A stretch of DNA of 64,000 nt from Polynucleobacter sp. HIN5 (GTDB lineage Bacteria > Pseudomonadota > Gammaproteobacteria > Burkholderiales > Burkholderiaceae), in contig NZ_AP028136.1 in the NCBI RefSeq assembly GCF_030297555.1, positions 1,054,001 to 1,118,000 on the forward strand. Direction: 5' to 3'. The notes under the pieces were generated by a model. It worked only from the letters and a program-made list of their open reading frames with translations, was not told the origin of the DNA and did no database searches. Positions 46,861 through 64,000 of this stretch are shown here, in pieces. The first letter of the stretch is position 1; every line of letters starts with the position of its first letter. The position numbers were made by a program, and so were the translations under genes.

Positions 46861-47000
46861 ACCTACTACCCAGAAGAGCTAGATAATCTCCGAACCACCA
46901 TGTCTAACATTGGTATACAGTACTTCCGTCGAGCTGGCGATTAAAACACTGGGGTAGTGGCCTTGTGTGGGGTCTTGTATCGAGGTATTGGTATCCGAAG
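46861..47000 (+). repeat. Intergenic repeat, copy E (degenerate)
   Basis: From CAACCTAC through AGAAGAGCTAGATAATCTCCG to the GTGTGGGGTCTTGTAT region it aligns without large gaps to copy B at 57991 (AGAAGGGCTGGCTAATCTGCAG ... AGTGGGGTCTGATG), with many substitutions. The tRNA-like head is mostly decayed. It fills the 276-base gap between the PLP enzyme and the GNAT gene; the remainder of this gap holds no gene I can see. Confidence 0.6.
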
Positions 47001-47019
47001 GTCTCTATCTAGAAAAAAA

Positions 47020-48491: not shown

Positions 48492-48624
48492 TAGAAACAC
48501 TTCGCACTGCCTTGAGGGCTCGCAGTACCCCGATGTCACTGTCTGTGACACCTCAAATGGGCATGACATTTGTTGGGGTCCGATGTCAGGCTCGTCGCGT
48601 ATGCAGGTACTTGTCGGGAAAACC
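48492..48624 (+). repeat. Intergenic repeat, copy D
   Basis: GCAGTACCCCGATGT onward aligns with GCAGTGCCCTGATTT of copy A, and the end GTCGGGAAAACC equals the end of copies B and C. The tRNA-derived head is not recognisable. It occupies the gap between the Rap1a-like and aldo/keto reductase genes. Confidence 0.7.
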
Positions 48625-48630
48625 AAAAAT

Positions 48631-48661
48631 TATCAAGCGTCCTTACTGGAGACGCTTGATA
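48631..48661 (-). terminator. Hairpin terminator for the aldo/keto reductase
   Basis: TATCAAGCGTC-loop-GACGCTTGATA, an 11-base stem; on the minus strand it is followed by ATTTTTGG. It lies 16 bases beyond the aldo/keto reductase stop. The stem core AAGCGTC also appears in the hairpin after repeat copy B. Confidence 0.75.
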
Positions 48662-48676
48662 TAAGTCAGCCGAATG

Positions 48677-49753
48677 CTATTTAGCGGTTGCAGCAGCTGC
48701 CCTTGCCCCTATTGCTCGCCGAATGGTTCCGTTATAGGCTTTGCCTGGATAGGCTGGCATCTCTTGTAGTTTGTCAAAGCCAGGAATGGTTTCCATAAAC
48801 TTGACCATACGAATACGCATATCCGGATCAGGCAACTTACCGCGCATGGCACGAATGTTCTCTGTCTGATGGGCAGGGTTACTAGTAGCCGGAATTGCAC
48901 ACGTAATTGCAGGATTAGAAATAACCCACTTTAAGAAAAATTCTGCCCAGTTCTTGCAATCAAACTCTTTAGCAAAGTCGGGCAATGGTCTGCCCTCAAC
49001 AATCTTAAATAAACGCGCCTTCTCAAATGGCATATTAACCAGAACTGCCGTTCCCTTATCGAGGGCAGCAGGAAGAATACGCTCTTCGGCTAGGCGCATC
49101 TGAATGGAATAATGCACTTGGACGAAATCCAGATCGTTGCGCTCAACTTGTGAAGCCAAAATATTGAAATATGGAATCTCATGATGGGTGACGCCAACAT
49201 ACCGAATCTTTCCTTCCCGCTTCCAGTTCTTAAGTACTGGAACAATTTGATCCACATTGACCAAACTATGAACTTGCATGAGATCAATCTTGTCTCGCCA
49301 GAGCCGTTGCTGGCTTTGTTCAAAACTTTTACGAGCATGGCTATCATCGGCCAGGAACTCACCGGTAGACCAAATCTTATTAGCAATAAACATTTGCTCA
49401 TTAATTCCCATGCAGGTCGCAAAGTCACCCACACTAATCTCACCGGTACCATAAAGTGGTGAGGTATCAAACACCCGGCCTCCGCCATCCCAGAAACGCT
49501 TAATCACCTCACGAATATTAGTACGCGGGGCACCCGGTAATAAATCAAACGTGAGATACGTTCCCAATCCAATTGCTGGCAGAATTTCACCGGTTTTGGG
49601 AATTTTTCGAGTAATTAAGCCCGAAGATGATTGTGCAAACGCACTACCTGTGGGCAATAACGAAGCTGGGAGTGCACTCGCCGCGGCGGTCAGCCCTATG
49701 GTCTTAAAAAAATCACGACGCTCAGGTTGGGTGGGTTGCGAAGATTGGGTCAT
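48677..49753 (-). CDS. Tat-exported aldo/keto reductase
   Basis: 358 residues from the ATG at 49753 (MTQSSQPTQPERRDFFKTI); RRDFFK then a hydrophobic run to SAFAQ is a Tat signal. The AKR barrel follows: LPAIGLGTYLTFDL, FDTSPLYGTGEISVGDF with the active-site Asp and Tyr, KIWSTG for the Lys and LMQVHSLVNVD for the His. An NADP-fold enzyme sent folded to the periplasm suggests cofactor loaded before export. Upstream of it on the same strand lies the exported FAA hydrolase. Confidence 0.87.
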   Translation of the reverse strand: MTQSSQPTQPERRDFFKTIGLTAAASALPASLLPTGSAFAQSSSGLITRKIPKTGEILPAIGLGTYLTFDLLPGAPRTNIREVIKRFWDGGGRVFDTSPLYGTGEISVGDFATCMGINEQMFIANKIWSTGEFLADDSHARKSFEQSQQRLWRDKIDLMQVHSLVNVDQIVPVLKNWKREGKIRYVGVTHHEIPYFNILASQVERNDLDFVQVHYSIQMRLAEERILPAALDKGTAVLVNMPFEKARLFKIVEGRPLPDFAKEFDCKNWAEFFLKWVISNPAITCAIPATSNPAHQTENIRAMRGKLPDPDMRIRMVKFMETIPGFDKLQEMPAYPGKAYNGTIRRAIGARAAAATAK

Positions 49754-49795
49754 AAAAGTCTCCGATGTGATCAAGCAATGGAATGAAAATCATCA

Positions 49796-50605
49796 TTAAA
49801 CAATCTTAATGACTAAATCAGGAAAACCGTCGAGCATACAACGCACAATATCGCCACGCACCACAGGACCCACGTTTTCTGGGGTTCCTGAATAAATGAT
49901 GTCACCAGGGAACAGTTCATTGGCTTCGGATAACTTCACAATTTGCTCTGCAACTGACCAAATCATCTGGTTTAAGTTTGCCTTTTGACGAACTTCACCA
50001 TTAACCGATAAAGCAATGGATCCGCTCTTTTGATGCCCAATTTTGCTGACTGGAAAAATGGGGCCAATGGGTGCCGAATGATCAAACGATTTACCGATTT
50101 CCCAGGGTTTCTTTTGATCCCCCATGAATCGCTGCAAATCACGCCGCGTCATATCTAAACCAAGGGCATATCCATACACATGGTCTAAGGCTTTATCAAT
50201 GGTAATGTTTTTGCCACCGGTTTTTAGGGCAGCTACTAACTCCACCTCGTAGTGATAATTCTTAGTTAGGGTTGGATACGGGTGATCCACAATTTTATTG
50301 GGGGCAACAAATTGAATCGCATCCGTGGGCTTTTGAAAAAAGAATGGCGGTTCGCGTGTCGGGTCAGAGCCCATCTCCCGAGCATGCGCTGCATAATTTC
50401 GTCCAATGCAATAAATACGCCGAACGGGAAATTGCTCACTACTATTCGCTATCGGAATATACGTTGGCTCTACTTGAAACGGCGTTTTTGGCTTTGCTGC
50501 TTCTACCGAAGATGTGGCCCCTAGGGTCACGATGGAGGCAGCCCCCAGTCCAAGCTTCATCCATTGTCGACGATTTTCGTAAGAGGTCTCTTTTTTAGTT
50601 GTCAT
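49796..50605 (-). CDS. Tat-exported fumarylacetoacetate hydrolase family protein
   Basis: 269 residues. N-terminus NRRQWMKLGLGAASIV is a Tat signal, followed by an FAH domain: IYCIGRNYAAHAREM, PFFFQKPTDAIQFV, YEVELVAALKTGG with metal-binding Glu, GYALGLDMTRRDLQ with Asp, and PGDIIYSGTPENVGPV. Normal FAH-family hydrolases are cytoplasmic; export is unusual. 42 bases upstream of the aldo/keto reductase start, so co-transcribed. Confidence 0.86.
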   Translation of the reverse strand: MTTKKETSYENRRQWMKLGLGAASIVTLGATSSVEAAKPKTPFQVEPTYIPIANSSEQFPVRRIYCIGRNYAAHAREMGSDPTREPPFFFQKPTDAIQFVAPNKIVDHPYPTLTKNYHYEVELVAALKTGGKNITIDKALDHVYGYALGLDMTRRDLQRFMGDQKKPWEIGKSFDHSAPIGPIFPVSKIGHQKSGSIALSVNGEVRQKANLNQMIWSVAEQIVKLSEANELFPGDIIYSGTPENVGPVVRGDIVRCMLDGFPDLVIKIV

Positions 50606-50804
50606 TGTTCATCCTTGGTTGATTGATCGAATACAACCATTGTGCGCCTCATCCTTTTGAATTTCAATGGACTGCTATTCCTGAATTTCCCTAATGGTGA
50701 ACATCAATACCTGGGATTTGTATTAATGTTCCTAGTTTTGTTCTTACTGAAGTGCTTATCAGTAAACTATTGCTTTCAGTGTATTGATTTATAAAGGGAT
50801 GGGC

Positions 50805-52472
50805 ATGAGTCATTCGTCAACCTTAATGCATGGTGGCCAGATCTTAGCCAATGCCCTGGTCCGTCAAGGTGTTGAATTCGCTTTTGGTGTTCCTGGCGAA
50901 AGCTTTTTGCCTCTTCTGGACGGCCTGGTTGATCACGATTCCAAATTACGCTTTATTACCTGCCGCCAAGAAGGTGGTGCCAGCTATATGGCCGAAGCCT
51001 ATGCCAAACTGACTGGAAAGCCAGGTGTTTTGATGGTTACACGTGGCCCTGGTGCTGCAAATGCCTTGATCGGAGTGCATACAGCTTATCAAGATTCAAC
51101 TCCCATGGTATTACTGATCGGACAAGTGGGTACGGACATGGTAGGTCGGGAAGCCTTTCAAGAAATGGACTACCGCAAGGTGTACTCTGAGTGTGCCAAG
51201 TGGGTGGGCAGCATTGATCGTGCGGATCGTATCGATGAATATATCTCCCATGCATTTCATCTTGCTCAATCCGGACGCAAGGGTCCCGTGGTGTTGGCTC
51301 TACCAGAGGATGTTTTGTTTGCCCAAGCCCATGAACACCCTACCCCTAAAGCCCAAATCATTAGTCCCGGATTAGACCAAGCCTTATTTAGCGAAGCCAT
51401 GCAGGCTCTAGCCAAGGCCAAACGAAGCATGATCCTTGCGGGCGGCGGCTCATGGACCAAAGATGCGTGCGATGCATTAAAACATTGGGCAAATCGGGAA
51501 GGCATACCCGTAGCTACGAGTTTTCGTTCTCAAGATCTGATTGATAATCACGATCCTTGCTTTGCAGGAGATCTTGGTATTGCTGCTAATCCAGCCTTAA
51601 TAAAACGAGTCCAAGAGGCGGATGTTCTACTTGTTATTGGTGAGCGTTTAGGCGAAATGACCACTGGCGGCTACACTATTCTTAGCGTTCCAAAACCGGC
51701 ATTAACACTCATTCATGTTTTACCTAGTCCCGACGAACTGGGTCGGGTTTATGCGGCCGACTACGCCCTAGCATGTTCGCCAGAGACGTTTTGTTTAGCA
51801 TTAACAAACGTAACCATGGGTAAGCAGCATAAGCCCGAGCGCATGCATGCAGCGCACAAGGACTACCTTGCTTTTAGTCAACCCAACTCCATTCCAGGGG
51901 GTGTCCAACTATCTGAGATCGTTGCTAACTTAGCAAATGAATTACCCCGTAACGCGATACTTACGAATGGAGCGGGTAATTTTGCCGCCTGGCTCCATCG
52001 CTTTTACCCCTATGGTGGTTTTAAAACACAATTAGCTCCAGCCAATGGATCCATGGGCTATGGCTTGCCAGCTGCAATTACAGCAAAATTGGTCGATCCT
52101 CAGCGGGTGGTCGTGGCTTTTTGTGGTGACGGCGACTTCATGATGAATTGCCAAGAGCTGGCAACAGCGCTTCGCTATCAAGCCCAACCGATTGTCTTAA
52201 TTATCAACAATGGGATGTACGGCACCATTCGAATGCACCAAGAACGAGAGTTTAAGAGTCGAGTGTCCGGCACTGAATTAACAAATCCTGACTTTGTGCG
52301 TTTTGCGGAGAGTTTTTCAATGCCCGGTTATCGGGTTGAACGAACTGAGCAGTTTGCCTCTGTACTACAGGCAGCCCTCAAAAGTTCGAGGGGTGCCATT
52401 ATTGAAATCGTCATAGACCCAGAAGCAATTAGTCCGAGTAAGCGCCTTTCTGAACTCGGGCGCCCCTCTTAA
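50805..52472 (+). CDS. Thiamine-diphosphate enzyme (acetolactate synthase-like)
   Basis: 555 residues from the ATG at 50805, chosen for its AAAGGG site; an in-frame ATG 21 bases upstream lacks one. Three domains: [19 protein letters not shown], with the catalytic-type Glu in [15 protein letters not shown]; a middle domain; and the ThDP site [36 protein letters not shown]. Similar to oxalyl-CoA decarboxylase and acetolactate synthase-like decarboxylases; exact reaction unknown. It may depend on the thiamine made by the 6-12 kb block. Confidence 0.87.
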
Positions 52473-53506
52473 TCGACTTTTGCTCCAGACTCTTTAACTA
52501 CTCGGGTCCACTTTGCAATCTCACTCTTAATGAAATTAGCAAATTGCTCAGGGGTGTTGCCGACGGGTTCAGCACCCATGGCCGCGTATTTCTCACGTAC
52601 TGCTGGGCTGTTTATCGCGCGCACCGCCTCGGTGTTGATCAATCGTACTAAATCGGGGGGCGTATTCGCAGGCACCAAAATTCCAAACCATGAAGTAGCC
52701 TCATAACCTGGAAGGTTGGCAGCTTCAGCCACGGTGGGTAAATCGGGTAATGCTGGCGAGCGTTTGGCACTTGTCACAGCCAAAGCCTTTAAGCGTCCGG
52801 CTTTGATGAAATTAATAGCCGACGGAATGTTATCGAACATGATATCCACATTACCTGCAATCAAATCAGCAACTGCTGGGGGACTACCCCGATACGGTAA
52901 ATGAACCATATAGGTTTTGGTCATTGACTTAAATAGTTCCCCAGCCATATGAATCGAGGTCCCATTTCCGCTGGATGCCATATTCACCTTACCGGGATTG
53001 GCACGCGCGTAACGAATCAAATCATTCACACTATTTATATTATTACGCTTGGCCCAATCTGGATTGACCACCAAGACGTTCCCAAACTCTGCCACCAATG
53101 TAACCGGTGCAAAATCTTTAATCGGATCAAATGGTAGCTTGCCGCCACCTTGAGTGTACAAGGGCTGGTTAATTCCGTGGGTACCCACCGAGCCCATCAA
53201 CCAGGTGTAGCCATCAGCCGGAGCTTTGGCAACCAGTTCAGCGCCAATATTTGCTCCAGCCCCTGGTTTATTGTCAATCACAATATTCCATTTAACTAAA
53301 ACCCCTAACTCTGCAGCCAAAGGTCGAGCAATATTATCCGTTGCACCGCCGGGGGGGAATGGGATCACATAACGAATCGGTTTATTTGGAAACTGACTTT
53401 GTGCATGAACACCGCCGAGACCAAAGCTTGCAAGAAAAATAAATGGCAAGACTAATCGTAATAATTGGCTAGGCGAACGAAAATTAGTAAATGTTGCCTT
53501 TTGCAT
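52469..53506 (-). CDS. Bug/TctC-type periplasmic solute-binding protein
   Basis: 345 residues. Signal peptide around [19 protein letters not shown], then the Bug blocks [54 protein letters not shown] and [17 protein letters not shown]. Overlaps the ThDP enzyme gene tail to tail by four bases. Orphan receptor without TctAB; it likely serves the surrounding catabolic cluster. Confidence 0.9.
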
Positions 53507-53725
53507 AGTATTCCCCTTTTAAAAACCTCGTTATCAATCAACGCATTATTTTTAGAGTCAATGGCTCAAACCGCCCACATTAGCTTTAATGCCCATATTA
53601 AAGACAAGCATCAAAATAATGATCAGGATAAATCCTAATAGCCTCCAATAAAACAGCTAAATTCATGGTTTAGCTCAGCATAATTACCTACAATGACTGT
53701 TTAAGTAGGCTAATTAGCAACAATC

Positions 53726-54562
53726 ATGACAAACCCAGCGATTATCTCTGTGGCTATTACCGGCTCAGTCCCCAGAAAGAAAGATTGTGCCGGCCTGCCA
53801 GTGACGGTTAGCGAACAGATTGAGGAAACGCATAAGGCGTATGACGCTGGGGCTAGTTTGGTTCATATCCATGTTCGCAATCCAGATGAAAGCCCTGGAT
53901 CGAATCCCGATCAATTTTTTGCAGTGCAGGAAGGAATTCGTAAATACTGCCCCCAAATGATTGTTCAGTTTTCAACTGGCGGTCGGGGCCGCAATCAGCA
54001 AGAGCGTGGCGCCATGCTTACTCACAGACCTGATATGGCTTCTTTGGCGACCGGTTCAGTCAATTTTCCAACCGCGATCTATGAAAATCCCCCCGATTTC
54101 ATTGAACACCTAGCAACTGAAATGCTCAAATACGATGTGAAGCCAGAAATTGAGATATTTGACTTGGCAATGCTCTATAACGCTGCCAATTTAGTTACGA
54201 AAGGCCTCATCCGAGCGCCGGCCCATGTGCAATTTGTGATGGGCATCCCCAATGCCATGCCTGCTAAGCGTAGTATCCTAGAGTTTTTAATCAAAGAACT
54301 TCATGAGGTATTGCCACAAGCGACTTGGACAGCTGCTGGGATCGCCAAGCATCAACTTGTTCTCAATGAGTGGGCCTTAGAACTTGGGGGTCACGTACGA
54401 ACTGGCCTTGAAGATAATATTCGCTTTGATAAAGACCAAATTGCTAAAGATAATGCGCAATTAGTTGCTCGGGTAGCCAAACTATGTAGCGAATACAACC
54501 GGCCAGTTGCTACAGCGAAAGAAGCCAGAGAAATATTGGGGTTGCGCCAAGTTAAAGAATGA
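53726..54562 (+). CDS. BKACE family beta-keto acid cleavage enzyme (DUF849)
   Basis: 278 residues. The zinc-binding HxH is visible in AGASLVHIHVRNPDESPGSNPDQF, with QFSTGGRG and ASLATGSVNFPTAIYENPP further on, and VMGIPNAMPAKRSILEF near the C-terminus. BKACE enzymes condense a beta-keto acid with acetyl-CoA to acetoacetate and a CoA thioester. The side-chain-specific residues cannot be assigned by eye. It ends on the base before the convergent FAA hydrolase gene. Confidence 0.88.
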   Translation: MTNPAIISVAITGSVPRKKDCAGLPVTVSEQIEETHKAYDAGASLVHIHVRNPDESPGSNPDQFFAVQEGIRKYCPQMIVQFSTGGRGRNQQERGAMLTHRPDMASLATGSVNFPTAIYENPPDFIEHLATEMLKYDVKPEIEIFDLAMLYNAANLVTKGLIRAPAHVQFVMGIPNAMPAKRSILEFLIKELHEVLPQATWTAAGIAKHQLVLNEWALELGGHVRTGLEDNIRFDKDQIAKDNAQLVARVAKLCSEYNRPVATAKEAREILGLRQVKE

Positions 54563-55438
54563 TCACAACCCCTGATCTGTGATCGAGTTTTGTAAAACCC
54601 CTATCCCCTCAATCTCGATTTCACAAACATCACCCGGCTTCATAAAAACCGGTGGCGTTCTGGCATAACCAACTCCAGCAGGGGTTCCTGTAATCACCAC
54701 ATCCCCAGGCTCCAAGGTCATGCACTCCGTAATTAGTTGAATCGTCTCGGCAACACCCCATAAAAAATCTTTAGTATTGGCATTTTGCATAAGATTACCG
54801 TTTAAGCGCGACTGAATCTGCAAACCATGTGCGCCGCTAGGTAACTCATCTGGGGTCACAAGCCATGGACCAAAAGCCCCTGTTTGATCAAAGTTCTTCC
54901 CAATCGTCCATTGACTCGTTTTTCGCTGGTAGTCTCTGAGACTACCGTCATTGAAAATACTATAGCCAGCGACACAATCAAGAGCGTTTTCCTTGGTTAA
55001 ATTACGCGCTTTCTTTCCTACAATAAAAACGAGCTCCGCTTCATAGTCTAATTTGTCAGAAACGCTAGGCCGAATGATTGGCGCTAAATGTGCGGTTAGT
55101 GAGGATGGGCCGCGCATAAAAAAACTGGGGTACTCAGGCCGAGCATTACCACCCTCTTTAGCATGATCGGCGTAATTAAGCCCCATACAAACAATTTTTC
55201 CAGGCTGATCAATTAAAACATCGAACTTAATTTCAGAAAGCTTCTTATTGATTACATTAGGATTGGATAAAGCTTGCTTGGCCTTTGAAAAAGTGGGGTC
55301 GATTTCAATGAACTCCCTCAACTTACTTGGAATGCTTGGGTCTGTGGCGCATAAATCAATAAATTCTTGTGATGATTTATCACGTAATAAGCCAATTTTG
55401 GGTTGCATGCTCTGGTTACGGTAACTAAATAGTCTCAT
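54563..55438 (-). CDS. Fumarylacetoacetate hydrolase family protein (cytoplasmic)
   Basis: 291 residues, with an N-terminal domain (MRLFSYRNQSMQPKIGLL) and FAH barrel: KIVCMGLNYADHAKEGG, PSFFMRGPSSLTAH, DYEAELVFIVGKKARN with metal-binding Glu residues, GYSIFNDGSLRDYQRK, and PGDVVITGTPAGVGYARTPP. It has no export signal, unlike the copy at 49796. The family splits C-C bonds in diketo acids or decarboxylates oxaloacetate-like acids. Confidence 0.88.
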   Translation of the reverse strand: MRLFSYRNQSMQPKIGLLRDKSSQEFIDLCATDPSIPSKLREFIEIDPTFSKAKQALSNPNVINKKLSEIKFDVLIDQPGKIVCMGLNYADHAKEGGNARPEYPSFFMRGPSSLTAHLAPIIRPSVSDKLDYEAELVFIVGKKARNLTKENALDCVAGYSIFNDGSLRDYQRKTSQWTIGKNFDQTGAFGPWLVTPDELPSGAHGLQIQSRLNGNLMQNANTKDFLWGVAETIQLITECMTLEPGDVVITGTPAGVGYARTPPVFMKPGDVCEIEIEGIGVLQNSITDQGL

Positions 55439-55772
55439 ATTGACACTCTAAATTATTTTTTTAGCCAGGCAAATTAAATACTTGGATACTAATTAACCAC
55501 CAATACGATTTTGAATATTAAAAAGTGTACGACCTAAAACATCATTAACACTCAATACCAGATACATACTTTACAGGTTTTGTCACCAGTGGTCGCCGTA
55601 CGCCACAGAATGAACTTATTGTGGATATATCAACCATGTGACCGATATACACACGCTTTGTTCTACGCAACTGGGCGTTTTTTATCTAATTCCTTAGATT
55701 TTGTACGGATACTTTTGCTCATACTGTGGCACAACTGAAATTCGGTCATCATTCCCTAAAATAGATGAACCT
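55439..55772. other. 334-base intergenic region before the antiporter gene
   Basis: Between two divergent genes. AT-rich near the FAA gene, then mixed sequence with an acgc-gcgt pairing followed by TTTTTTAT around 55667-55687 that may be a weak terminator. I see no reading frame with gene-like features, no tRNA and no known riboswitch. A structured leader for the antiporter cannot be excluded. Confidence 0.4.
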
Positions 55773-57041
55773 ATGAGCAACCCAACTACCATTCAACTCA
55801 TTGCCACTTCGCTATTTGGTATTGCGGTATTGCATACCTTTTTAGCTTTTTATTTTGAGCGGCTAGCCCATCGTTCACGGCACCACGCTGGTTTGTTTCA
55901 TCTCTTAGGTGAAGTTGAAGCTGTATTTGGCTTTTGGGCGATGGTCCTCGTTATTTTCATGGCTTTTATTCATGGTAGTGCTAAGCCGGCCATCACTTAC
56001 CTAGAATCTCGCAACTATACCGAGCCATTGTTTGTCTTTGCCATTATGGTGATTGCAGCTAGTAAACCGATTTTGTACGTTGCCAAAACCATTGTTCTTG
56101 CAATTTCAAAACTGCTTGAAAAGTCGCTCAAGTTACCGGCAGCTAATGCCAACTATTTTGTGACCCTGAGCGCCGTCCCCATTTTAGGCTCGTTTATTAC
56201 AGAGCCAGCTGCGATGACCTTGGCAGCCTTTTTGCTTCGTGACACCATCTTCTCGAAAACCAATTCAACGAAATTGATGTACCTCACGATTGGGGTCTTA
56301 TTTGTCAACATTTCAATTGGTGGGGCTTTAACAAGTTTTGCTGCCCCTCCCATTTTGATGGTTACTTCTGCTTGGAATTGGGATACGGCGTATGTATTTC
56401 AGACTTTTGGAATCAAAGCAACCATTGCGGTTTTAGTCAATGCCCTATTAATTACACTGGTTGTTCATAAGGACCTACCAAAGGCCGCATCAGCCCATCA
56501 GGACGATCGTATGCCCCTATGGGTTGTCCTCACTCACTTACTATTTCTGTTAGCAGTGGTTGTTTTTGCCCACCATCCGGTAGTCTTCATGGGCTTTTTG
56601 CTCTTTTTCTTGGGCTATACCCACGCTTACAGTACCTATCAATCCCGACTGATTCTCAAAGAAGCACTCATGGTGGCATTTTTCTTAGCTGGTCTTGTGG
56701 TACTTGGCGGACTCCAACAATGGTGGCTACAACCATTACTAAGTGGCATGAGTAATATGGCAGTGTTTTATGGAGCGACTGCTCTTACTGCAATTACTGA
56801 TAATGCTGCTTTGACGTATTTGGGATCTTTGGTGGAGGGAACAACCGAAGAGTTTCGTTATGCTTTGGTGGCCGGTGCGCTTGCAGGTGGCGGCTTAACC
56901 GTAATCGCAAATGCCCCGAATCCTGCGGGTTTAGCCATCCTTAAAGATTACTTTCCACAAAAAGCAGTGTCAGCACTCAAATTGCTGTTGGCTGCCCTTC
57001 CACCAACTACCATCGCGATACTTGCTTTTCAAGTTCTTTAA
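55773..57041 (+). CDS. Putative Na+/H+ antiporter (NhaD-like ion transporter)
   Basis: 422 residues from the ATG at 55773; the open frame begins 24 codons earlier but those residues are not conserved-looking. About 11 hydrophobic helices. Blocks such as SAVPILGSFITEPAAMTLAAFLLRD and TALTAITDNAALTYLGSLV, followed by AGGGLTVIANAPNPAG, have the TEPAA and NAPNPAG signatures of this antiporter family of the ion-transporter superfamily. Ion identity is not proven. Confidence 0.82.
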   Translation: MSNPTTIQLIATSLFGIAVLHTFLAFYFERLAHRSRHHAGLFHLLGEVEAVFGFWAMVLVIFMAFIHGSAKPAITYLESRNYTEPLFVFAIMVIAASKPILYVAKTIVLAISKLLEKSLKLPAANANYFVTLSAVPILGSFITEPAAMTLAAFLLRDTIFSKTNSTKLMYLTIGVLFVNISIGGALTSFAAPPILMVTSAWNWDTAYVFQTFGIKATIAVLVNALLITLVVHKDLPKAASAHQDDRMPLWVVLTHLLFLLAVVVFAHHPVVFMGFLLFFLGYTHAYSTYQSRLILKEALMVAFFLAGLVVLGGLQQWWLQPLLSGMSNMAVFYGATALTAITDNAALTYLGSLVEGTTEEFRYALVAGALAGGGLTVIANAPNPAGLAILKDYFPQKAVSALKLLLAALPPTTIAILAFQVL

Positions 57042-57042
57042 G

Positions 57043-57234
57043 TGGCCTGCCCGGCAGGAGACAAGCCTGCGACCTACGGCTTAGAAGGGCTGACAAATCT
57101 GCGAAACACAATGTCAAACAATAGCTTGCAGTGCCCTGATTTGAGTGTTCATCAAAACACCCGTTGTCATGTCATTCGGTGGGGTCAGATTTTAAGTACG
57201 AGATGTCTGCAGGAGGTTATCGAGAAAACCGACC
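57043..57234 (+). repeat. Intergenic repeat, copy A (antisense tRNA-Arg 3' half)
   Basis: Starts TGGCCTGCCCGGCAGGAG and runs through CTGCGACCTACGGCTTAGAAG, which on the other strand is a tRNA 3' half with loop CTTCTAA (anticodon TCT, Arg) and CCA; here the T loop is mutated. About 145 bases of non-tRNA DNA follow, ending GAGAAAACCGACC, shared with copies B, C and D. It begins two bases after the antiporter stop. Confidence 0.85.
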
Positions 57235-57254
57235 TTAAATACTTACTAACCAAG

Positions 57255-57566
57255 TTATTTACCCGACACTTTATGGATATATCGTTTTACTGCTTTTTGG
57301 TAAGCCTCATCTTTATCTCGCTTACCAACCGCTATCACAATCACTGTTACTCGCTTATCTGCTACTTCATAGACAAGACGATAGCCACTAGTTCGTAATT
57401 TAATTTTGTAGCAACCTTCTAACTCCCGGCTTAACAGTGACGATGGAATATGAGGTGTCACCAGACGTTTTTCTAATTGCTTCTTGAACTGTTCTTTTAA
57501 AGAACCATCCAACTTATCCCACTCTTTTTTGGCTAAAACATGGAACTCTAGCTTATAGATCCTCAA
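57255..57566 (-). CDS. RelE/ParE-superfamily toxin
   Basis: 103 residues: KLEFHVLAKKEWDKLDGSLKEQFKKQLEKRL, RELEGCYKIKLRTSGYRLVYEV, then VIVIAVGKRDKDEAYQKAVKR. This is the RelE fold with the Arg/Tyr residues (LRTSGYRLVYE and the late KR-Y) that cut mRNA on the ribosome. It overlaps the antitoxin gene by 14 bases. Bounded by repeat copies A and B. Confidence 0.9.
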   Translation of the reverse strand: MRIYKLEFHVLAKKEWDKLDGSLKEQFKKQLEKRLVTPHIPSSLLSRELEGCYKIKLRTSGYRLVYEVADKRVTVIVIAVGKRDKDEAYQKAVKRYIHKVSGK

Positions 57567-57810
57567 GGTTTACCCTAATAGTTTTACCACCACGTCTCTT
57601 TTCAACAATTTTAATTAATTCAAGGTCATCCAAAGCATCCAAAATTTTTTCATATACTTTTGCAGATAACAAATATGCCTCAGGCTTGTTGTGACTAAGG
57701 ATAGCAACAGGATTACCCCCTGCTTGCTCAATGATTTTGCTCGGCGTTAACTTTCTTAAATCAGTCACACTGATTGTTGTCCCTGCATGAATCGGTGTAA
57801 GTGTATTCAT
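57553..57810 (-). CDS. Phd/YefM-family antitoxin
   Basis: 85 residues. The N-terminal half (TISVTDLRKLTPSKIIEQAGGNPVAILSHNKPEAYLLSAKVYEKIL) is the Phd/YefM DNA-binding fold; the C-terminal part binds the toxin. First gene of the pair, so it is made before the toxin, and it should bind the palindrome just upstream. Confidence 0.9.
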   Translation of the reverse strand: MNTLTPIHAGTTISVTDLRKLTPSKIIEQAGGNPVAILSHNKPEAYLLSAKVYEKILDALDDLELIKIVEKRRGGKTIRVNLEDL

Positions 57811-57826
57811 TTTTTCACCATTATTT

Positions 57827-57844
57827 TGTACATAATTATGTACA
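57827..57844. promoter_or_regulatory. TA operator, 18-bp perfect palindrome
   Basis: TGTACATAATTATGTACA, fully self-complementary, 16 bases before the antitoxin ATG. The TGTACA ends match typical YefM/Phd operator half-sites. Autorepression of the toxin-antitoxin operon is expected. Confidence 0.85.
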
Positions 57845-57881
57845 TTGTAATATAGTGAATTTAAATGTGCAATCGCCCAAT

Positions 57882-57903
57882 AAATTAACCTTGAGGTTAA
57901 TTT
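57882..57903 (+). other. AT-rich hairpin upstream of the TA pair
   Basis: AAATTAACC-TTGA-GGTTAATTT, a 9-base perfect stem. It has no long T-run and lies upstream of the minus-strand antitoxin. It may be a bidirectional terminator remnant. Confidence 0.35.
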
Positions 57904-57930
57904 TACTTGGCGTATGAGTGGTAAAAAAAG

Positions 57931-57976
57931 TGTAAACCATGTGCTCGGTACAAACTGTAAAGGATGTGATCGGTAC
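57931..57976 (+). repeat. Pair of 21-bp direct repeats, likely insertion-sequence end remnant
   Basis: TGTAAACCATGTGCTCGGTAC at 57931 less three changes recurs at 57956 (25 bp apart). Close-set repeated 20-mers at a terminus recall the multiple transposase sites of IS21-family ends. No transposase gene is nearby, so it is at most a relic. Confidence 0.5.
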
Positions 57977-57990
57977 TTACCGCCATGATC

Positions 57991-58204
57991 TGGCCTGCCC
58001 AGCAGGAGTGGCTCCGCCGATACTTCGTGTTCGAACCTGCGACCTACGGCTTAGAAGGGCTGGCTAATCTGCAGAACACAATGTTTGACAATGACATACA
58101 GTTGCCAGGTTCGAGCTGTTCATCAAAACAAGGGTTGGCATGGCATTCAGTGGGGTCTGATGTTTAGGGATTGGTGTCTGCAGGTGATTGTGGGGAAAAC
58201 CGAC
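57991..58204 (+). repeat. Intergenic repeat, copy B (antisense tRNA-Arg 3' half)
   Basis: Same head as copy C (TGGCCTGCCCAGCAGGAGT, then CGAACCTGCGACCTACGGC) but with a 22-base insertion in the T-loop part at about 58010-58031. The tRNA-like portion stops at the anticodon loop (TTAGAAG). About 140 conserved bases follow, ending GGGGAAAACCGAC. The next bases form a strong hairpin. Confidence 0.85.
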
Positions 58205-58205
58205 A

Positions 58206-58238
58206 AATTCAAGCGTCCTTTATAGGGACGCTTGAATT
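58206..58238 (+). terminator. Strong hairpin after repeat copy B
   Basis: AATTCAAGCGTCC-TTTATAG-GGACGCTTGAATT, a perfect 13-base stem with an AT-rich flank (ATTATTTG). No gene lies immediately upstream on either strand, so what it ends is unclear. Its core AAGCGTCC is shared with the hairpin at 48631. Confidence 0.6.
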
Positions 58239-58302
58239 ATTTGATACTGATCTTTAACGACTCAATCAAGGCGATTGCACCTCAAGATAGAACTGTGTGG
58301 CT

Positions 58303-58332
58303 TATATGCACTAATAATGTGCATATATGCAC
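58303..58332. promoter_or_regulatory. NtrC-like inverted repeat before the ATP-grasp operon
   Basis: TATATGCAC-TAATAAT-GTGCATATA, 9-base perfect arms, followed at once by a third ATATGCAC. The core TGCACT-N5-TGTGCA is 17 bases, near the NtrC consensus TGCACY-N5-RGTGCA. No clear sigma-54 promoter is seen. Confidence 0.45.
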
Positions 58333-58386
58333 CACCATTTATCAGACTAAGCCGATATTAGATCTCAATCGTAATAGTCTGACTGA

Positions 58387-59799
58387 ATGAAAAATCCGTA
58401 TAACGAGATGTTTGATGAGTATGGTGCTCCACGTCCGCACTATGGGACTTTTCATACCTGGCTTGGTAACCAGAGCCAAGCACTCATGAGTCTTAAACGG
58501 GCAGAGGCCGATCTAATTTTTCGTCGTGTTGGCATTACCTTTGCTGTGTATGGTGATGATCTTGGTGCAGAGCGCACCATTCCCTTCGATGAGGTTCCGC
58601 GTATCTTTACCGCTAAAGAATGGTCCGACCTTGAGTCTGGATTGCGGCAACGGGTTACCGCACTTAATCACTTTATTCATGATGTCTATCATGATGAAGC
58701 AATCATTAAAGCTGGAATCATACCGGCCGAACAGATTTTTAACAATGCGCAATATCGACCGGAGATGCGTCATGTCGAAGTTCCACGCAATATTTATGCC
58801 CAAATTGCAGGGATTGATATTGTGCGAGCTGGTGAAGGTGAGTTTTATGTCTTAGAAGATAACCTGCGGGTGCCTTCGGGTGTTTCTTATATGGTTGAAG
58901 ACCGCAAAATGATGATGCGGCTATTTCCTGATCTGTTTCAGCGCTATCGGGTTGCACCCGTGGAGCACTATCCCGATCTTCTACTGGAATGCCTCAAGTC
59001 CGTCAAACCCGAAGGCATTAAAAAACCCAATGTAGTTGTGCTGACCCCAGGCATGTTTAACTCTGCTTATTTTGAACATACCTACCTAGCCCAACAAATG
59101 GGGGTGGAGTTAGTCGAAGGTAAGGATCTCTTTGTGAAAGACGAAGAGGTTTTTATGCGTACCACACAAGGCCCCGAGCGAGTGGACGTGATCTATCGTC
59201 GGATTGATGATGACTTCCTTGATCCTTTAGCATTTCGGTCTGACTCCGCATTAGGTGTTGCTGGTTTACTGAACGCTTACCGAGCTGGCAACATTACCTT
59301 GGCTAATGCCATTGGCACTGGGATTGCAGACGATAAGTCTATTTATCCCTACGTACCCGACATGATTGAATTTTATTTAGGTGAAAAGCCCATCCTAAAC
59401 AATGTACCAACCTATCAGTGTCGTAAAGCCGAAGACCTCGCCTATACCCTCGCCAATATCGAGCAGCTTGTTGTGAAAGAAACCCATGGTGCCGGGGGCT
59501 ATGGCATGCTCGTTGGCCCAGCTTCCACCAAAGATCAGATTGCACGTTTTAAGGAAAATCTCATCAAGCACCCCGAACAATATATTGCTCAACCGACTCT
59601 TTCATTATCAACCTGCCCTACTTTTGTGGAGTCTGGAATAGCCCCCCGTCATATTGATTTGCGCCCATTCGTACTGTCAGGCAAGACCATCAAAATGGTG
59701 CCGGGCGGACTCACGCGGGTAGCTCTCAAAGAAGGTTCTTTGGTGGTGAACTCTTCTCAGGGCGGCGGTACCAAGGACACTTGGGTGCTAGAGGATTAA
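58387..59799 (+). CDS. Circularly permuted ATP-grasp protein (DUF404/DUF407)
   Basis: 470 residues. Typical blocks: GIDIVRAGEGEFYVLEDNLRVPSGVSYMVEDRKMM, YRRIDDDFLDPLAFRSDSALGVAGLLNAYRAGNITLANAIGTGIADDKSIYPYVPDMIEFYLGEKPIL, and ETHGAGGYGMLVGP. This family carries an ATP-grasp fold in a permuted order and is predicted to ligate a peptide-like bond. First gene of a four-gene operon with alpha-E, transglutaminase and Anbu. Confidence 0.92.
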   Translation: MKNPYNEMFDEYGAPRPHYGTFHTWLGNQSQALMSLKRAEADLIFRRVGITFAVYGDDLGAERTIPFDEVPRIFTAKEWSDLESGLRQRVTALNHFIHDVYHDEAIIKAGIIPAEQIFNNAQYRPEMRHVEVPRNIYAQIAGIDIVRAGEGEFYVLEDNLRVPSGVSYMVEDRKMMMRLFPDLFQRYRVAPVEHYPDLLLECLKSVKPEGIKKPNVVVLTPGMFNSAYFEHTYLAQQMGVELVEGKDLFVKDEEVFMRTTQGPERVDVIYRRIDDDFLDPLAFRSDSALGVAGLLNAYRAGNITLANAIGTGIADDKSIYPYVPDMIEFYLGEKPILNNVPTYQCRKAEDLAYTLANIEQLVVKETHGAGGYGMLVGPASTKDQIARFKENLIKHPEQYIAQPTLSLSTCPTFVESGIAPRHIDLRPFVLSGKTIKMVPGGLTRVALKEGSLVVNSSQGGGTKDTWVLED

Positions 59800-59811
59800 A
59801 ACGGAGACGCC

Positions 59812-60789
59812 ATGCTAAGTCGAACCGCAGATTGTCTTTATTGGATGGCCCGCTATACCGAGCGTGCTGAGAATACTGCACGCATGCTGGATGTGAATTA
59901 TCAAACATCCCTTTTGCCACAACCGTCCGAATACCGTGATCAAAGCTGGCGCAAGTTACTTACGATCTCAAAATTAGAGCCGATGTTCTTGGAACGTTCC
60001 TCCACGATGAATCGTGAAAATATATTACGGTTCATGATTGAGGATTTAAATAATCCATCGAGTATCGTATCGTGCTTGCGCGCTGCGAGAGAAAATGCCA
60101 GAGCTATTCGGGGCAGAATTACCTCTGAACTTTGGGAAACCCAAAACACCACATGGCTTGAGTTCCAGCAGCTCTTAGCAAAACAGGATTATGCCGACCC
60201 TAGTGGTCTATTGGACTGGGTCAAGTACCGCTGCCACTTATTTCGGGGGGTGATGCATGGCACGATGCTCAAGAATGAAGCGTACTACTTTATGCGCATT
60301 GGTACTTTATTAGAGCGCGCTGATAATACTGCTCGTATCTTGGAGACGAAATATCAAGACCCAGATAGTCTGATGCAGTTAAATCCCAAAAATAACATGG
60401 GCGAAGAATCTGATTCAGCCTTCTTTGACTTCTATCACTGGGCTGCGTTACTGCGTTCGGTCTCTGCGTTTGAGATCTATCGACAAATCTATTCAGATCA
60501 AATTGCTCCCCAACAGGCTGCTGAGCTTTTAATCTTTAATCGACAGATGCCGCGTTCTTTAACGTACTGTGTTAACGATTTAATTACCCTCTTGGGTGAA
60601 ATCCGTAATCAGAATTCTAAGGAGATAGAACGCTTAATCGGTAAATTACAGGCAGACTTAGACTACTCTAATATTGATGAAGTATTTGCTATGGGGTTAG
60701 AAGAATTTACAAAACAGTTTCTGGAGCGCATCAATCATATTGGTGATGAACTAAGTAATGCCTATCTCATACCTCTCGCCGTTGCTTGA
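59812..60789 (+). CDS. Alpha-E domain protein (DUF403)
   Basis: 325 residues, almost all alpha-helical. N-terminal MLSRTADCLYWMARYTERAENTARMLDVNY is the family signature. It accompanies the ATP-grasp gene 12 bases upstream and overlaps nothing. Its partner role in peptide synthesis is known only from gene neighbourhood. Confidence 0.9.
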   Translation: MLSRTADCLYWMARYTERAENTARMLDVNYQTSLLPQPSEYRDQSWRKLLTISKLEPMFLERSSTMNRENILRFMIEDLNNPSSIVSCLRAARENARAIRGRITSELWETQNTTWLEFQQLLAKQDYADPSGLLDWVKYRCHLFRGVMHGTMLKNEAYYFMRIGTLLERADNTARILETKYQDPDSLMQLNPKNNMGEESDSAFFDFYHWAALLRSVSAFEIYRQIYSDQIAPQQAAELLIFNRQMPRSLTYCVNDLITLLGEIRNQNSKEIERLIGKLQADLDYSNIDEVFAMGLEEFTKQFLERINHIGDELSNAYLIPLAVA

Positions 60790-60790
60790 T

Positions 60791-61603
60791 ATGACAACCT
60801 TGCACCTAGAGATTGAACATCACACTCAGTATCACTATGAAACTGCTGTGCGTTACTCCATTCAGGAACTTCGACTCAAACCACCGAATTCCCATGGACA
60901 GTCAATAAAAAACTGGAAGATTCTGACGCCGATCAAGACAAAAACAAACCAGGATGCGTTTGGCAATGAATATCAAACATTTGTCCAAGATGCGCCCTAT
61001 AAATCCATGAGTATTTCAGCAAAAGGAGAAGTCATTAGTACTGGCGGCTATGAATACACTGACCTCGAATCCGCTGTCTCACCCTATTACTTACTGCAAC
61101 AAACTAGGCTTACCATTCCCTCGCCAGAAATGATGGCCTATTTTGAGAAAACCCTTCCCAAAAAGGCAGACCTGGATTCTGTTTTAGAGTTAGCCAGCGC
61201 AATCCGAAACACCATCACCTATCAATCTGGAATTACGAATTTTGCGACTGCGGCGATGCAATCGTTTGCCATGAAAACCGGTGTTTGCCAAGACCATAGT
61301 CACATTATGCTCAGTCTTTGCCGAGCGGCAAATATCCCAGCGCGCTATGTCAGTGGTTATTTTTTTGCCGAGGACTCTCCTAATCTAGCTAGCCATGCCT
61401 GGGTTGATATCTGCACCGATATTGATAAATCCAAGTGGCTTAGTATTGATGTCACCCATGCTTGCATCACGGATAATCGGCATATTCGTCTTGCTGTGGG
61501 AAGGGATTATTATTCAGCTGCGCCCATCAAAGGAATTCGTTCTGGCGGTGGTCAAGAGGAGCTTAGTGCCCGAATTTCAATTCATCAAATTAAAGTACTC
61601 TAA
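60791..61603 (+). CDS. Transglutaminase-family cysteine protease
   Basis: 270 residues from the ATG at 60791, one base after the alpha-E stop; an upstream in-frame ATG would overlap alpha-E. Catalytic triad: Cys in MKTGVCQDHSHIM, His in ASHAWVDIC and Asp in LSIDVTHACITDNRHIRLAVGRDY. N-terminal beta domain LHLEIEHHTQYHYETAVRYSIQELRL is typical. Likely splits or cross-links peptides made by the ATP-grasp partner. Confidence 0.92.
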   Translation: MTTLHLEIEHHTQYHYETAVRYSIQELRLKPPNSHGQSIKNWKILTPIKTKTNQDAFGNEYQTFVQDAPYKSMSISAKGEVISTGGYEYTDLESAVSPYYLLQQTRLTIPSPEMMAYFEKTLPKKADLDSVLELASAIRNTITYQSGITNFATAAMQSFAMKTGVCQDHSHIMLSLCRAANIPARYVSGYFFAEDSPNLASHAWVDICTDIDKSKWLSIDVTHACITDNRHIRLAVGRDYYSAAPIKGIRSGGGQEELSARISIHQIKVL

Positions 61604-61604
61604 T

Positions 61605-62441
61605 ATGACTTATTGCATTGGCTTATGCCTTGACCAAGGCCTCGTGTTGCTAGCAGATACGCGGACAAACGCAGGGGTTGACCAGATTGGCACCTTTCGG
61701 AAAATGACCATATTCCAAAAGGACAAAGAGCGCTTCTTTGCCCTGATGAGTTCTGGTAACTTAGCGATTACCCAAGCCGTTAAAGAAATATTGCTCCAGG
61801 GGGAGACTTTCGGTGAGATCAATCTCTGGACGGCTAAAAATAGTTACGAAGCTGCCACAGTTGTCGGGGCTGCTATCAAGAAAGTACGGGAGCGCGATTT
61901 TCAATCCTTGCAAAAATCGGGTATCGAATTTAACTGCAATCTAATTTTTGGAGGCCAGGTTAAGGGAGAGAAGCCGCGCCTATTTAATATCTACGCTGCT
62001 GGTAACTTCATCGAAACTACTCCAGAGACCCCCTACTTCCAAATTGGAGAATCTAAATACGGCAAACCAATCTTAGACCGAGTTATCCGCTTTAATACGC
62101 CTTTAAACCTAGCAACTAAATGCGTCTTGATATCCATGGACTCAACCATCAAAAGTAATATTTCGGTTGGTCTTCCTCTTGATCTTTTGGTTTATGAAAA
62201 TAACTCCTTTGCGCTTGAGAAGCTAATCACTATTGATGAAGATAACCCTTACTTTGAAATGATGCGGGGTATTTGGGGTGAAAAGCTTAAAGAGGTTGCC
62301 CTGAGTATTCCAGAGCCGAGTTGGAATGGATCTAAAAAAAGTATTTCGATTGTGTCAACATCAAAAAAACTAGGTCCAGTGCCTATTCAAACACCCAAAA
62401 CAAAGCGAATCAAGGCAAGCAAATCGATTAAGTCCAAATAA
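61605..62441 (+). CDS. Anbu proteasome-type protease (ancestral beta subunit)
   Basis: 278 residues from the ATG at 61605, one base after the transglutaminase stop. The mature N-terminus after Met removal is TYCIGLCLDQGLVLLADTRTNAG, with Thr as nucleophile, Asp and Arg in ADTRTN, and a Lys in FRKMTIF. Anbu forms ring- or spiral-shaped particles. Compared with the usual about 240 residues, it carries an extra lysine-rich tail (PKTKRIKASKSIKSK). The neighbours suggest a shared peptide-processing pathway. Confidence 0.92.
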   Translation: MTYCIGLCLDQGLVLLADTRTNAGVDQIGTFRKMTIFQKDKERFFALMSSGNLAITQAVKEILLQGETFGEINLWTAKNSYEAATVVGAAIKKVRERDFQSLQKSGIEFNCNLIFGGQVKGEKPRLFNIYAAGNFIETTPETPYFQIGESKYGKPILDRVIRFNTPLNLATKCVLISMDSTIKSNISVGLPLDLLVYENNSFALEKLITIDEDNPYFEMMRGIWGEKLKEVALSIPEPSWNGSKKSISIVSTSKKLGPVPIQTPKTKRIKASKSIKSK

Positions 62442-62461
62442 TAAGATTTACCATCCAGAAT

Positions 62462-62653
62462 TGGCCTGCCCAGCAGGAGTCGAACCTGCGACCTACGGCT
62501 TAGAAGGGCTGGCTGATCTGCTTTAGACAATATCAGACACTGACATACAGTGGGTAGGCTTGAGGTGTAGGCCAAAACAAGGGTCGTCGTGGCGTTGGGT
62601 GGGGCCAGATATTGGGTTTGTGGTGTCGGCAGGCGTTTGTCGGGAAAACCGAC
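62462..62653 (+). repeat. Intergenic repeat, copy C (antisense tRNA-Arg 3' half)
   Basis: The cleanest copy: reading the minus strand, CTTCTAA-GCCGT-AGGTC-GCAGG-TTCGACT-CCTGC-TGGGCAG-G-CCA is a 45-base tRNA-Arg(UCU) 3' half from the anticodon loop. The 5' half that should pair with GCCGT is absent. About 140 bases ending GTCGGGAAAACCGAC follow and match copies A, B and D. It starts 21 bases after the Anbu stop. Confidence 0.88.
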
Positions 62654-62721
62654 ATTTTTGAGTACTCGTGAAAAAGAATCGTAAGGTAGCTAAAGAATGT
62701 TCAAAATTTCAACTAAGAGAA

Positions 62722-63621
62722 CTAAAAATGATTGGCTTTTTCTATTACTAATTGAATAAAGTTTTTCATTGCAATGGTTTGATGAGCTCCCTGACGCCAA
62801 TAAATTGTGGCGTCACGAGATAAGTGATTTCCCTCGATTTCTAGGCTAACTAAATCTTGCTCGCCATAACAAGCTACTGGGCTTCCAATAACGATTACTT
62901 TGCCCGTTTTTGCGATTTGAATTAAATCGTCCATTGATGATACTTCGAGCCTGGCATTAAGAGATACCCCATCACTTTTACATTGAAAATCAATTTTTTG
63001 TCTCATTAAAAAATTTTTATTGAGTAAGGCCAACTCCTCTTCCTCAATCATCTTTAAATTAATTTTGTTTGGAAATTTCCTTAGCTTTATTTTTTTACCA
63101 ATGAGCGAAAAATGCTCTCTAAATAAAAACTGATGTTGCAAATTTTGTGTCTTATAGTCATCTGGCAAAATTCCAATATCAATTCCGCCTTCATTAAGGT
63201 CGTCTATTAAGTTTTTGGCTGACCCCGCCTTAAGAGTTATTTTTATTTCAGGATTTGTTATAAACAAATCAATACATGCAGGTATTACAAGGGCTTTTAA
63301 GTAGGTATTGGTTGCACCAATATTTATTACTCCAGCAGCCTTATTTGAGTTGTTTCTCAATGTCAGAAGTACTTCATCTAGATTGCCAACAATTGGCTCG
63401 ACTTGACTTAGTAGATCTTTGCCAAAGGACGTTAAAACTGATTTTCTTCCTATCTTTTCAAAAATATTCTGCCCAAGAACATTAGTTAAATCCCTCATCT
63501 GCTGTGACAACGCAGATTGGGAAAGATTGAGAATCTCAGCTGCTTTGACATAACCCGTTGATTTAGCAAGCACAATAAAACTGCGAAGAAGACGAAGATC
63601 TATATGGTTATTTATAAGCAT
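62722..63621 (-). CDS. LysR-family transcriptional regulator
   Basis: 299 residues. Winged helix-turn-helix LRLLRSFIVLAKSTGYVKAAEILNLSQSALSQQMRDLTNVLGQNIFEKIGRKSVLT, then the effector-binding domain. Divergent from the Bug receptor at 63710; regulation of that gene is likely. The 88 bases between them are AT-rich, with several T-N11-A-type dyads possible. Confidence 0.93.
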   Translation of the reverse strand: MLINNHIDLRLLRSFIVLAKSTGYVKAAEILNLSQSALSQQMRDLTNVLGQNIFEKIGRKSVLTSFGKDLLSQVEPIVGNLDEVLLTLRNNSNKAAGVINIGATNTYLKALVIPACIDLFITNPEIKITLKAGSAKNLIDDLNEGGIDIGILPDDYKTQNLQHQFLFREHFSLIGKKIKLRKFPNKINLKMIEEEELALLNKNFLMRQKIDFQCKSDGVSLNARLEVSSMDDLIQIAKTGKVIVIGSPVACYGEQDLVSLEIEGNHLSRDATIYWRQGAHQTIAMKNFIQLVIEKANHF

Positions 63622-63709
63622 TTCTTATATTAAATATTAAAAAATATTAATTTACATTATATTTTTTTACGATTACATTGGTTCTGTTCTCTTAACTAAG
63701 GGGGTGGCC

Positions 63710-64000
63710 ATGAAAAATTTTTCAAAATTAATACTTTCCTTCGTCTTGTCTTGGATTTGTGGATTAGCAATCGCTCAGAATTACCCAAACAAACCTATCA
63801 AACTAATTGTTCCTTTCCCGCCTGGGGGTCCAACGGATATTGTTGCCAGACCTTTAGCGCAGATGTTGGGTGAGTCTATGAAGCAATCAATTATTGTCGA
63901 GAATAAAGGCGGTGCTGGTGGCTCTGTTGCAGCTGATTTTGTAGCTAAATCACCACCTGATGGATATACCATCATGGTCGGAACCGTGGGGACTCATGCA
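63710..64000 (+). CDS. Bug/TctC-type periplasmic solute-binding protein (partial)
   Basis: 97 codons to the window edge. Signal peptide (MKNFSKLILSFVLSWICGLAIAQ), then KPIKLIVPFPPGGPTDIVARPLAQML and ENKGGAGGSVAADFVAKSPPDGYTIMVG, the Bug-family N-terminal blocks. A GGGGGTGG-like ribosome site precedes the ATG. Third Bug receptor in the window. Confidence 0.92.
   Translation, partial: MKNFSKLILSFVLSWICGLAIAQNYPNKPIKLIVPFPPGGPTDIVARPLAQMLGESMKQSIIVENKGGAGGSVAADFVAKSPPDGYTIMVGTVGTHA

Follow-up and report, generated by a model that had tools for sequence, protein, structure and literature searches.

How do accessory genes come to be parcelled between copies of half a tRNA gene? This question is raised by a 64,000-nucleotide stretch of the Polynucleobacter sp. 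HIN5 chromosome, referred to here as the window (positions 1054001-1118000 of a single-contig genome of 1.88 Mb), which holds a family of intergenic repeats derived from tRNA-Arg(UCU). Coordinates follow window numbering, numbers above 64000 continue it past the window's end, and the genome position is the number plus 1054000. A comparison of sequences across the genus indicates that the repeats are very probably copies of the attachment site used by a family of integrative elements, which recombine within the tRNA-Arg(UCU) anticodon loop; so far the family has been seen in one genus. The locus bears on an open question, namely how metabolic genes are traded between streamlined freshwater species without visible conjugation machinery.

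Anatomy of the repeat

A full copy of the repeat, in the window and in its continuation, consists of a 46-bp core and an arm of ~148 bp on the plus strand. The core is the antisense 3' half of tRNA-Arg(UCU), and its identity to the tRNA ends one base past the anticodon loop. The inner end of the arm is a GTCGG-N5-CCGAC palindrome that is imperfect in some copies. Copies A, B, and C span 57043-57236, 57991-58207, and 62462-62656, respectively. Their parts and two partial copies, D and E, are as follows.

46878..47003, plus strand: copy E, a decayed left arm (most of the arm) whose core is lost; matched by the left-arm profile hidden Markov model (HMM) at E=1.1e-11 without having been a seed
48558..48624, plus strand: copy D, inner half of the left arm; HMM match
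57043..57088, plus strand: copy A core, antisense 3' half of tRNA-Arg(UCU) with 4 mismatches (91%)
57088..57234, plus strand: copy A left arm, attP-arm-like, with a decayed inner-end palindrome
57991..58058, plus strand: copy B core, interrupted by a ~22-bp insert
58059..58206, plus strand: copy B left arm, with the imperfect inner palindrome GTGGG-GAAAA-CCGAC
62462..62507, plus strand: copy C core, 46/46 identical to the 3' half of the resident tRNA-Arg(UCU)
62508..62655, plus strand: copy C left arm, with the inner palindrome GTCGG-GAAAA-CCGAC at 62639-62653

An initial annotation of the window had described a tRNA 3' half at the start of A, B, and C. The half is present in all three and perfect in C, but it is mismatched in A and split in B. 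The same annotation had D and E as arm-only copies, and both indeed lack a core, but their positions had to be corrected to those listed above.

The insert in core B lies at 58010-58031, and a decayed relative of it follows 17 nt of core at local position 16549 in the congener G127 (congeners are denoted by G and a number; relatives were represented by one genome per species, several of them fragmented metagenome-assembled genomes, MAGs). Beyond the inner palindrome, some copies have a second hairpin, AAGCGTCC...GGACGCTT (58210-58235, 48635-48659, and several arms of G103). A similar hairpin is found upstream of the integrase gene described below.

An array at a single tRNA gene

The repeats continue beyond the window. 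Further copies start at 66323 and 69762 (core only), at 72992, 76558, 80419, and 84868, and at 74840, where the core is decayed. Remnants are 15 nt of core at 95176 and 18 bp of the arm end at 103196. An intact tRNA-Arg(UCU) gene on the complement of 111899-111975 closes the array. The whole array measures 63-65 kb; every copy has the same orientation and lies 3' of the intact gene.

Are the copies confined to this locus? When the whole genome was searched with copy C, as the initial annotation had suggested, 14 matches were found and 12 of them fell in the array stretch (with B counted as two halves and the tRNA included). The remaining two were core-only matches to tRNA-Arg(CCT) and tRNA-Arg(CCG). 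In other words, the copies cluster at tRNA-Arg(UCU) rather than being scattered, and this search found no copy with core and arm elsewhere in the genome. The inner palindrome motif, allowing up to one mismatch, had 11 matches genome-wide, 10 of them inside the array, and a reversed control pattern had one. The repeat family is non-random because copy C finds 12 of its 14 places in one stretch and the palindrome so differs from its reversed control.

The cores at 62462, 72992, 76558, 80419, and 84868 are 46/46 identical to the resident tRNA. Thus many proximal cores are perfect, with 66323, 69762, 74840, and 95176 as exceptions, and those of the distal copies E, D, A, and B are decayed. Distal decay with proximal perfection is what would be expected if elements join at the tRNA. 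Copy E, the most distal, is on this sequence evidence the oldest mark of the array.

Two peculiarities of the cores were also observed. The decayed cores at 95176 and, in G120, at local positions 6165 and 27737 end at the same base, after ...CCCAGCAG or a variant of it, in two species. Some cores have CCGAGAAGG in place of CTTAGAAGG within the presumed crossover overlap (contigs C73 and C90 of G100, and 74840 in this genome), a change that might lock or re-target those sites.

The empty site and the relatives

Further evidence for integration comes from an unoccupied site. In G124, the chromosome homologous to the HIN5 chromosome up to 48453 ends 18 bp from tRNA-Arg(UCU). In HIN5, copy D occupies the place of this junction and 63 kb follow before the tRNA. 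Judged by the empty site, copy D is the apparent left end of the 63-kb insert. Copy E lies 1.6 kb farther out, where G124 has ~9.4 kb of other DNA, and the left-arm HMM found no left arm in the 20 kb of G124 that were scanned. Serial integration at one tRNA-Arg gene, as originally proposed, gains support from the intact gene that closes the array, from the G124 site, and from complete elements in congeners. The relatives also show modules that were gained, lost, or relocated with core and arm boundaries, in line with the expectation that the enclosed genes move as units.

Four stretches of GTDB contigs carried the exact junction pattern. One of them, a betaproteobacterial MAG contig, has a real left arm; the other three lack one and look like chance matches. 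The pattern was absent from the viral contigs searched. Plasmids (9 records) and phages (20 of 28 matches listed) gave core-only matches, apart from one phage in which the tRNA-Arg match extends 13 bases past the core. Core-only matches end near base 46 because the query continues with the arm there, and they were therefore rejected as support for a crossover point.

Complete elements

Complete elements of 8-21 kb were found in congeners. They share the core and left arm with the HIN5 copies and additionally have a right arm and a tyrosine integrase of ~407 aa. Their order in G016, G070, G007, and G120 is core-left arm, cargo, integrase (minus strand), right arm, and core or tRNA. The right arm is a second conserved end, found at the 3' flank of the tRNA in HIN5, G120, G103, and G127 and bounded by GTCGGGTTTCCCGAC or a close variant; in HIN5 it precedes only core 69762 and the tRNA. 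The suggestion that the ~140 conserved bases after the tRNA half are the end of an element agrees with these findings, as the same arm bounds the complete elements.

Profile HMMs were built for both arms, with seeds from most copies in HIN5, G120, G103, G127, G148, G070, G007, G016, and G011 and, for the right arm, additionally from G104, G012, G039, G108, and G083, so that matches on seed copies follow from the way the models were built. Arms outside the seeds were detected in G100, G065, G109, G130, and G182, and at further places within G120, G127, G103, G016, G070, and G011. The possibility that the right arm is an inverted left arm was rejected, since the left-arm HMM has no minus-strand match at right arms; the two arms share the palindrome only.

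Which genes form the backbone of an element? A comparison of 11 islands by single-linkage BLASTP clusters showed that the ~407-aa integrase recurs in 10, a catalytic-domain-only tyrosine recombinase of 188-207 aa in 9, DUF6641 in 8, a 149-177-aa protein in 7, and a 258-298-aa protein and an AAA ATPase in 6 each. The 149-177-aa protein looks excisionase-like, although neither Pfam nor PHROG gave a match for it. A structure model of the 258-298-aa protein (mean predicted local distance difference test score, pLDDT, 66.6) has a helical, partly confident N-terminal half. Relaxase PF03432, the one relaxase family searched for, is absent from the whole HIN5 genome, and no conjugation genes were seen among the proteins scanned.

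An integrase clade tied to the site

The HIN5 array contains an integrase gene of this kind.

101906-103129 (continued coordinates): tyrosine integrase of ~407 aa

Among the matches listed, which stop short of the weakest, a homologue at E<=1e-10 is found in 83 of 151 genus genomes. A clade was defined as 27 full-length proteins with at least 53% identity, leaving out truncated homologues in G123 and G107. Nineteen of these (16 genomes) are on a contig with tRNA-Arg(UCU), the tRNAs being confirmed by ARAGORN, and all 19 are within 30 kb of it; the other eight are on other contigs of draft genomes and are uninformative for linkage. Homologues at 43-49% identity behave differently: none of 14 (13 picked from the list plus that of G145) has a core match within 30 kb, and the G145 homologue (48% identity) is 431 kb away from one. 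Mapping the copies against tRNA-Arg(UCU) and integrases, another check that had been proposed at the outset, thus ties the clade to the tRNA site, and its integrase is the candidate enzyme for that site.

In a family-wide sample of 299 genomes from 25 genera, integrase matches at E<=1e-80 were confined to the genus itself (15/299). Named homologues occur in P. sphagniphilus and P. paneuropaeus, and one IMG/VR contig carries a relative at 44%. Arms are present without an integrase match in G127, G065, and G109, and the best match in G100 is at 46%.

Other recombinases were also seen. A different integrase group (31-32% identical) is encoded directly beside the tRNA-Arg(UCU) core in G079, G072, G086, and G129; at least two integrase families therefore use the site. 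Another tyrosine recombinase, of 415 aa, is encoded ~20 kb left of the array (25132-26379, minus strand).

These observations can be joined in a model in which crossover takes place in the 46-bp tRNA half, the core, and the ~148-bp arm forms the left end of the element. An integrase of the ~407-aa clade would insert circles at the core-tRNA junction, and each insertion would regenerate the tRNA and leave a core copy at the far end; as a consequence, elements would accumulate 3' of the tRNA gene. A complete element runs from core-left arm through cargo, integrase backbone, and right arm to core. Cut-down cassettes (core and left arm plus genes) may leave as circles and be re-inserted in trans, alone or in groups. 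Such re-insertion would yield shuffled or circularly permuted orders and, given a vehicle between cells, transfer between species.

Cassettes and their reordering

Most modules in HIN5 lack both an integrase and a right arm. Modules A-B, Y, Z, X2, and F sit between core copies, and the PF00589 matches of the genome fall elsewhere. The modules of the window carry the following genes, whose protein-family matches agree with the original assignment of a toxin-antitoxin pair to A-B and of the Anbu operon to B-C.

55701..57041, plus strand: cargo X1, a Na+/H+ antiporter (PF07399) whose gene stops 1 nt short of core A and has another copy at 75216-76556
57255..57566, minus strand: RelE/ParE-family toxin in A-B (PF05016, E=5e-13; TIGR02385 just under its cut-off)
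57553..57810, minus strand: Phd/YefM-family antitoxin in A-B (PF02604)
58387..59799, plus strand: cargo Y, circularly permuted ATP-grasp protein (PF14403)
59812..60789, plus strand: cargo Y, Alpha-E protein (PF04168)
60758..61603, plus strand: cargo Y, transglutaminase-like protein (PF01841, PF08379)
61605..62441, plus strand: cargo Y, Anbu/proteasome-family protein (PF00227); stop codon 20 nt before core C
62722..63621, minus strand: a LysR regulator, with which cargo Z begins; Z extends to 66321 and recurs at 76558-80418

Genes that read towards a core tend to end flush with it. The gap from stop codon to core is 1 nt at A, 66323, 76558, and 80419, 6 nt at 72992, and 20 nt at C and 84868, with copy B as the exception. 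When duplicates are counted once and the decayed cores 74840 (gap ~33 nt) and 95176 (118 nt) are left out, 4 of 5 cassettes have a flush gene end, and ~4.4% of intergenic positions in 140 kb are equally close behind a plus-strand stop. In relatives, the corresponding gaps measure 6, 62, and 30 nt in G103 and 111 nt for one cassette in G011; none is flush in G127.

Modules Y and Z are present twice in swapped order, Y-Z and later Z-Y, and all four switch points fall within 53 bp of a core start. Could ordinary homologous recombination account for this? After an ancient integration, exchange between the core-and-arm repeats might have produced the present duplications and order with no active site-specific shuffling. 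At 192 bp and 72-98% alike, the repeats would serve well as substrates, the region of highest identity contains the switch points, and some arrays have no integrase. However, a minimum of two exchanges, or a circle, is required to turn Y-Z into Z-Y, X1 and X2 seem to have been acquired separately, and the integrase clade is tied to the site across the genus. Homologous recombination is the strongest competitor of the attachment-site reading, and an unlikely one.

Further observations concern the cargo itself. A COQ7-like gene was considered as a captured essential gene and rejected, because its presence in 2 of 14 genomes makes it accessory. PADLOC gave one weak match to the window toxin (a CARF-RelE model) and none to five cargo proteins from relatives. 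A six-gene cargo, including proteins of 1040, 346, 192, and 427 aa, is common to the arrays of G103, G104, and G120, which differ in integrase (92% to that of HIN5 in G103 and G120, 55% in G104); four of its proteins had no PADLOC match.

Sharing of the Anbu operon between species and loss of the native copy

Module Y is also present in the array of another species. In G182, a version of Y with 89% identity lies 1.8 kb from tRNA-Arg(UCU), with a core and left arm on one side and a partial core on the other; the flanking chromosome aligned in a single 1-kb stretch, which is 69% alike. The contrast between the two values indicates sharing between species that does not follow the divergence of the chromosome. 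The left arm in G182 is of the type of that lineage, and homology of the cargo starts at the inner palindrome; the two parts therefore seem separable. G109 has an 88% copy of Y followed by an apparent decayed core.

The native operon of G120, G124, G127, and G103 lies at 0.54-0.61 Mb and is 75% alike, and an operon DNA match is found in 145 of 186 genus genomes. At the corresponding locus of HIN5 (genome 614133-614242), the flanks are 91% alike to those of G120 and stand 110 bp apart, with the operon absent. The ATP-grasp gene of Y has two copies in the genome, both in the array. To judge from this junction, HIN5 lost its native Anbu operon cleanly and the array copies are its sole copies. As they are the sole copies of a widely carried operon, tRNA cassette arrays may carry more than dispensable cargo.

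A bolder proposal can be made, which we regard as tentative and less likely than not. The array may be a second, integron-independent cassette system, in which a tyrosine integrase specific for tRNA-Arg(UCU) captures minimal cassettes (genes, the 46-bp core, and the 148-bp left arm), excises them as circles, and puts them back in trans, one at a time or in linked groups. The arm would be a lineage-specific adapter exchangeable at the inner palindrome, and the array a gene store shared within a freshwater genus and able to take over chromosomal genes such as the Anbu operon.

Structure of the arm and the remaining alternatives

Could the arm act as RNA, as a conserved regulatory or antisense element, and not in recombination? 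In favour of this, copy C folds into a somewhat stabler plus-strand DNA structure than its shuffles do (z -2.3; other strand z -1.5). However, no covarying structure was found in single-strand folds (8 copies), in DNA folds of copy C, or in the consensus fold (15 copies; covariation term ~0), a search of 44000-64000 against Rfam gave no match even with E-values of up to 1 allowed, and the arm marks the ends of modules and elements across species. With neither covariation nor an Rfam match, the RNA readings were dropped as very improbable.

A self-spreading tRNA-derived repeat of the kind of a miniature inverted-repeat transposable element (MITE) or a repetitive extragenic palindromic (REP) sequence, bounding genes by chance, would explain many alike non-coding copies with a partly palindromic end, and free spread of such a repeat had been allowed for at first. 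This has scarcely any chance of being correct, as no core with arm was found away from tRNA-Arg(UCU) in this genome, the copies coincide with module ends, and in stretches fetched from G120, G127, G103, G109, and G182 (the rest of these genomes not being exhaustively searched) the copies on tRNA contigs lie 3' of tRNA-Arg(UCU) in one orientation. A chromosomal integron with attC-like sites similar to half a tRNA would fit the flush stop codons, single orientation, and small accessory-gene cassettes, but it is just as improbable given that the core is a perfect tRNA half, that the integron-integrase model TIGR02249 gives 22.6 bits (407-aa protein) and 39.6 bits (207-aa protein) against a cut-off of 265, and that 0 of 33 consensus-fold pairs have a two-sided compensatory change.

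Comparison with known systems

The array is of a kind already known from additive tRNA islands and from cis-mobilizable elements (CIMEs). Chromosomal integrons hold cassette arrays in the same orientation, with genes that end next to the recombination site; the HIN5 array differs from them in having no integron integrase, no conserved attC-like fold that could be seen, and a tRNA core. In Streptococcus thermophilus, work by Pavlovic in 2004 reportedly described tandem accretion of CIMEs with integrative and conjugative elements (ICEs), in which att-flanked elements without recombination genes are mobilisable by a neighbour. The HIN5 modules, which lie between putative att-site copies and have no integrase of their own, resemble CIMEs in this respect. 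They differ from the CIME/ICE case in that no conjugation gene was seen among the proteins scanned, with PF03432 as the relaxase family searched for genome-wide, and in that the right end is often missing.

In the Polynucleobacter literature on genomic islands, tRNA, integrase, or tyrosine recombinase, the array does not appear in the titles and abstract openings of the matches listed. Replacement islands are treated in one report (PMC5644125), and the words 'tRNA' and 'integrase' are absent from its text. The closest parallels come from other lineages. Dehalococcoides ssrA islands form a tandem series downstream of a single RNA gene whose 3' end is copied at the border of each island, and islands occur with or without an integration module, the latter being perhaps cis-mobilizable according to the authors (PMC3146451). 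As that report describes them, they have a 20-bp direct repeat, a serine recombinase, and no duplicate islands within a strain, whereas HIN5 has a tyrosine integrase, a 46-bp core with a 148-bp arm, and duplicated and reordered modules.

Additive flexible genomic islands, with cassettes added beside a tRNA, tRNA-end repeats, and the same site in related strains, are found in Methylophilaceae (tRNA-Lys; PMC10872708), Alteromonas (PMC4119200, PMC5217437), and Actinomarinales (PMC7771536). The available portions of these reports describe no conserved arm, site-tied integrase clade, or permuted duplicates. The tRNA border, tyrosine recombinase, and cargo of tycheposons (Hackl 2023, via PMC10872708, as far as outlined there) are all present in HIN5. 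The locus offers a testable platform, since its core and arm are defined, its cassettes can be traced, and a candidate integrase is at hand. The conserved arm, the site-linked integrase clade, the flush cassettes, the permuted duplicates, and the replacement of an operon together make it a distinct variant among these systems.

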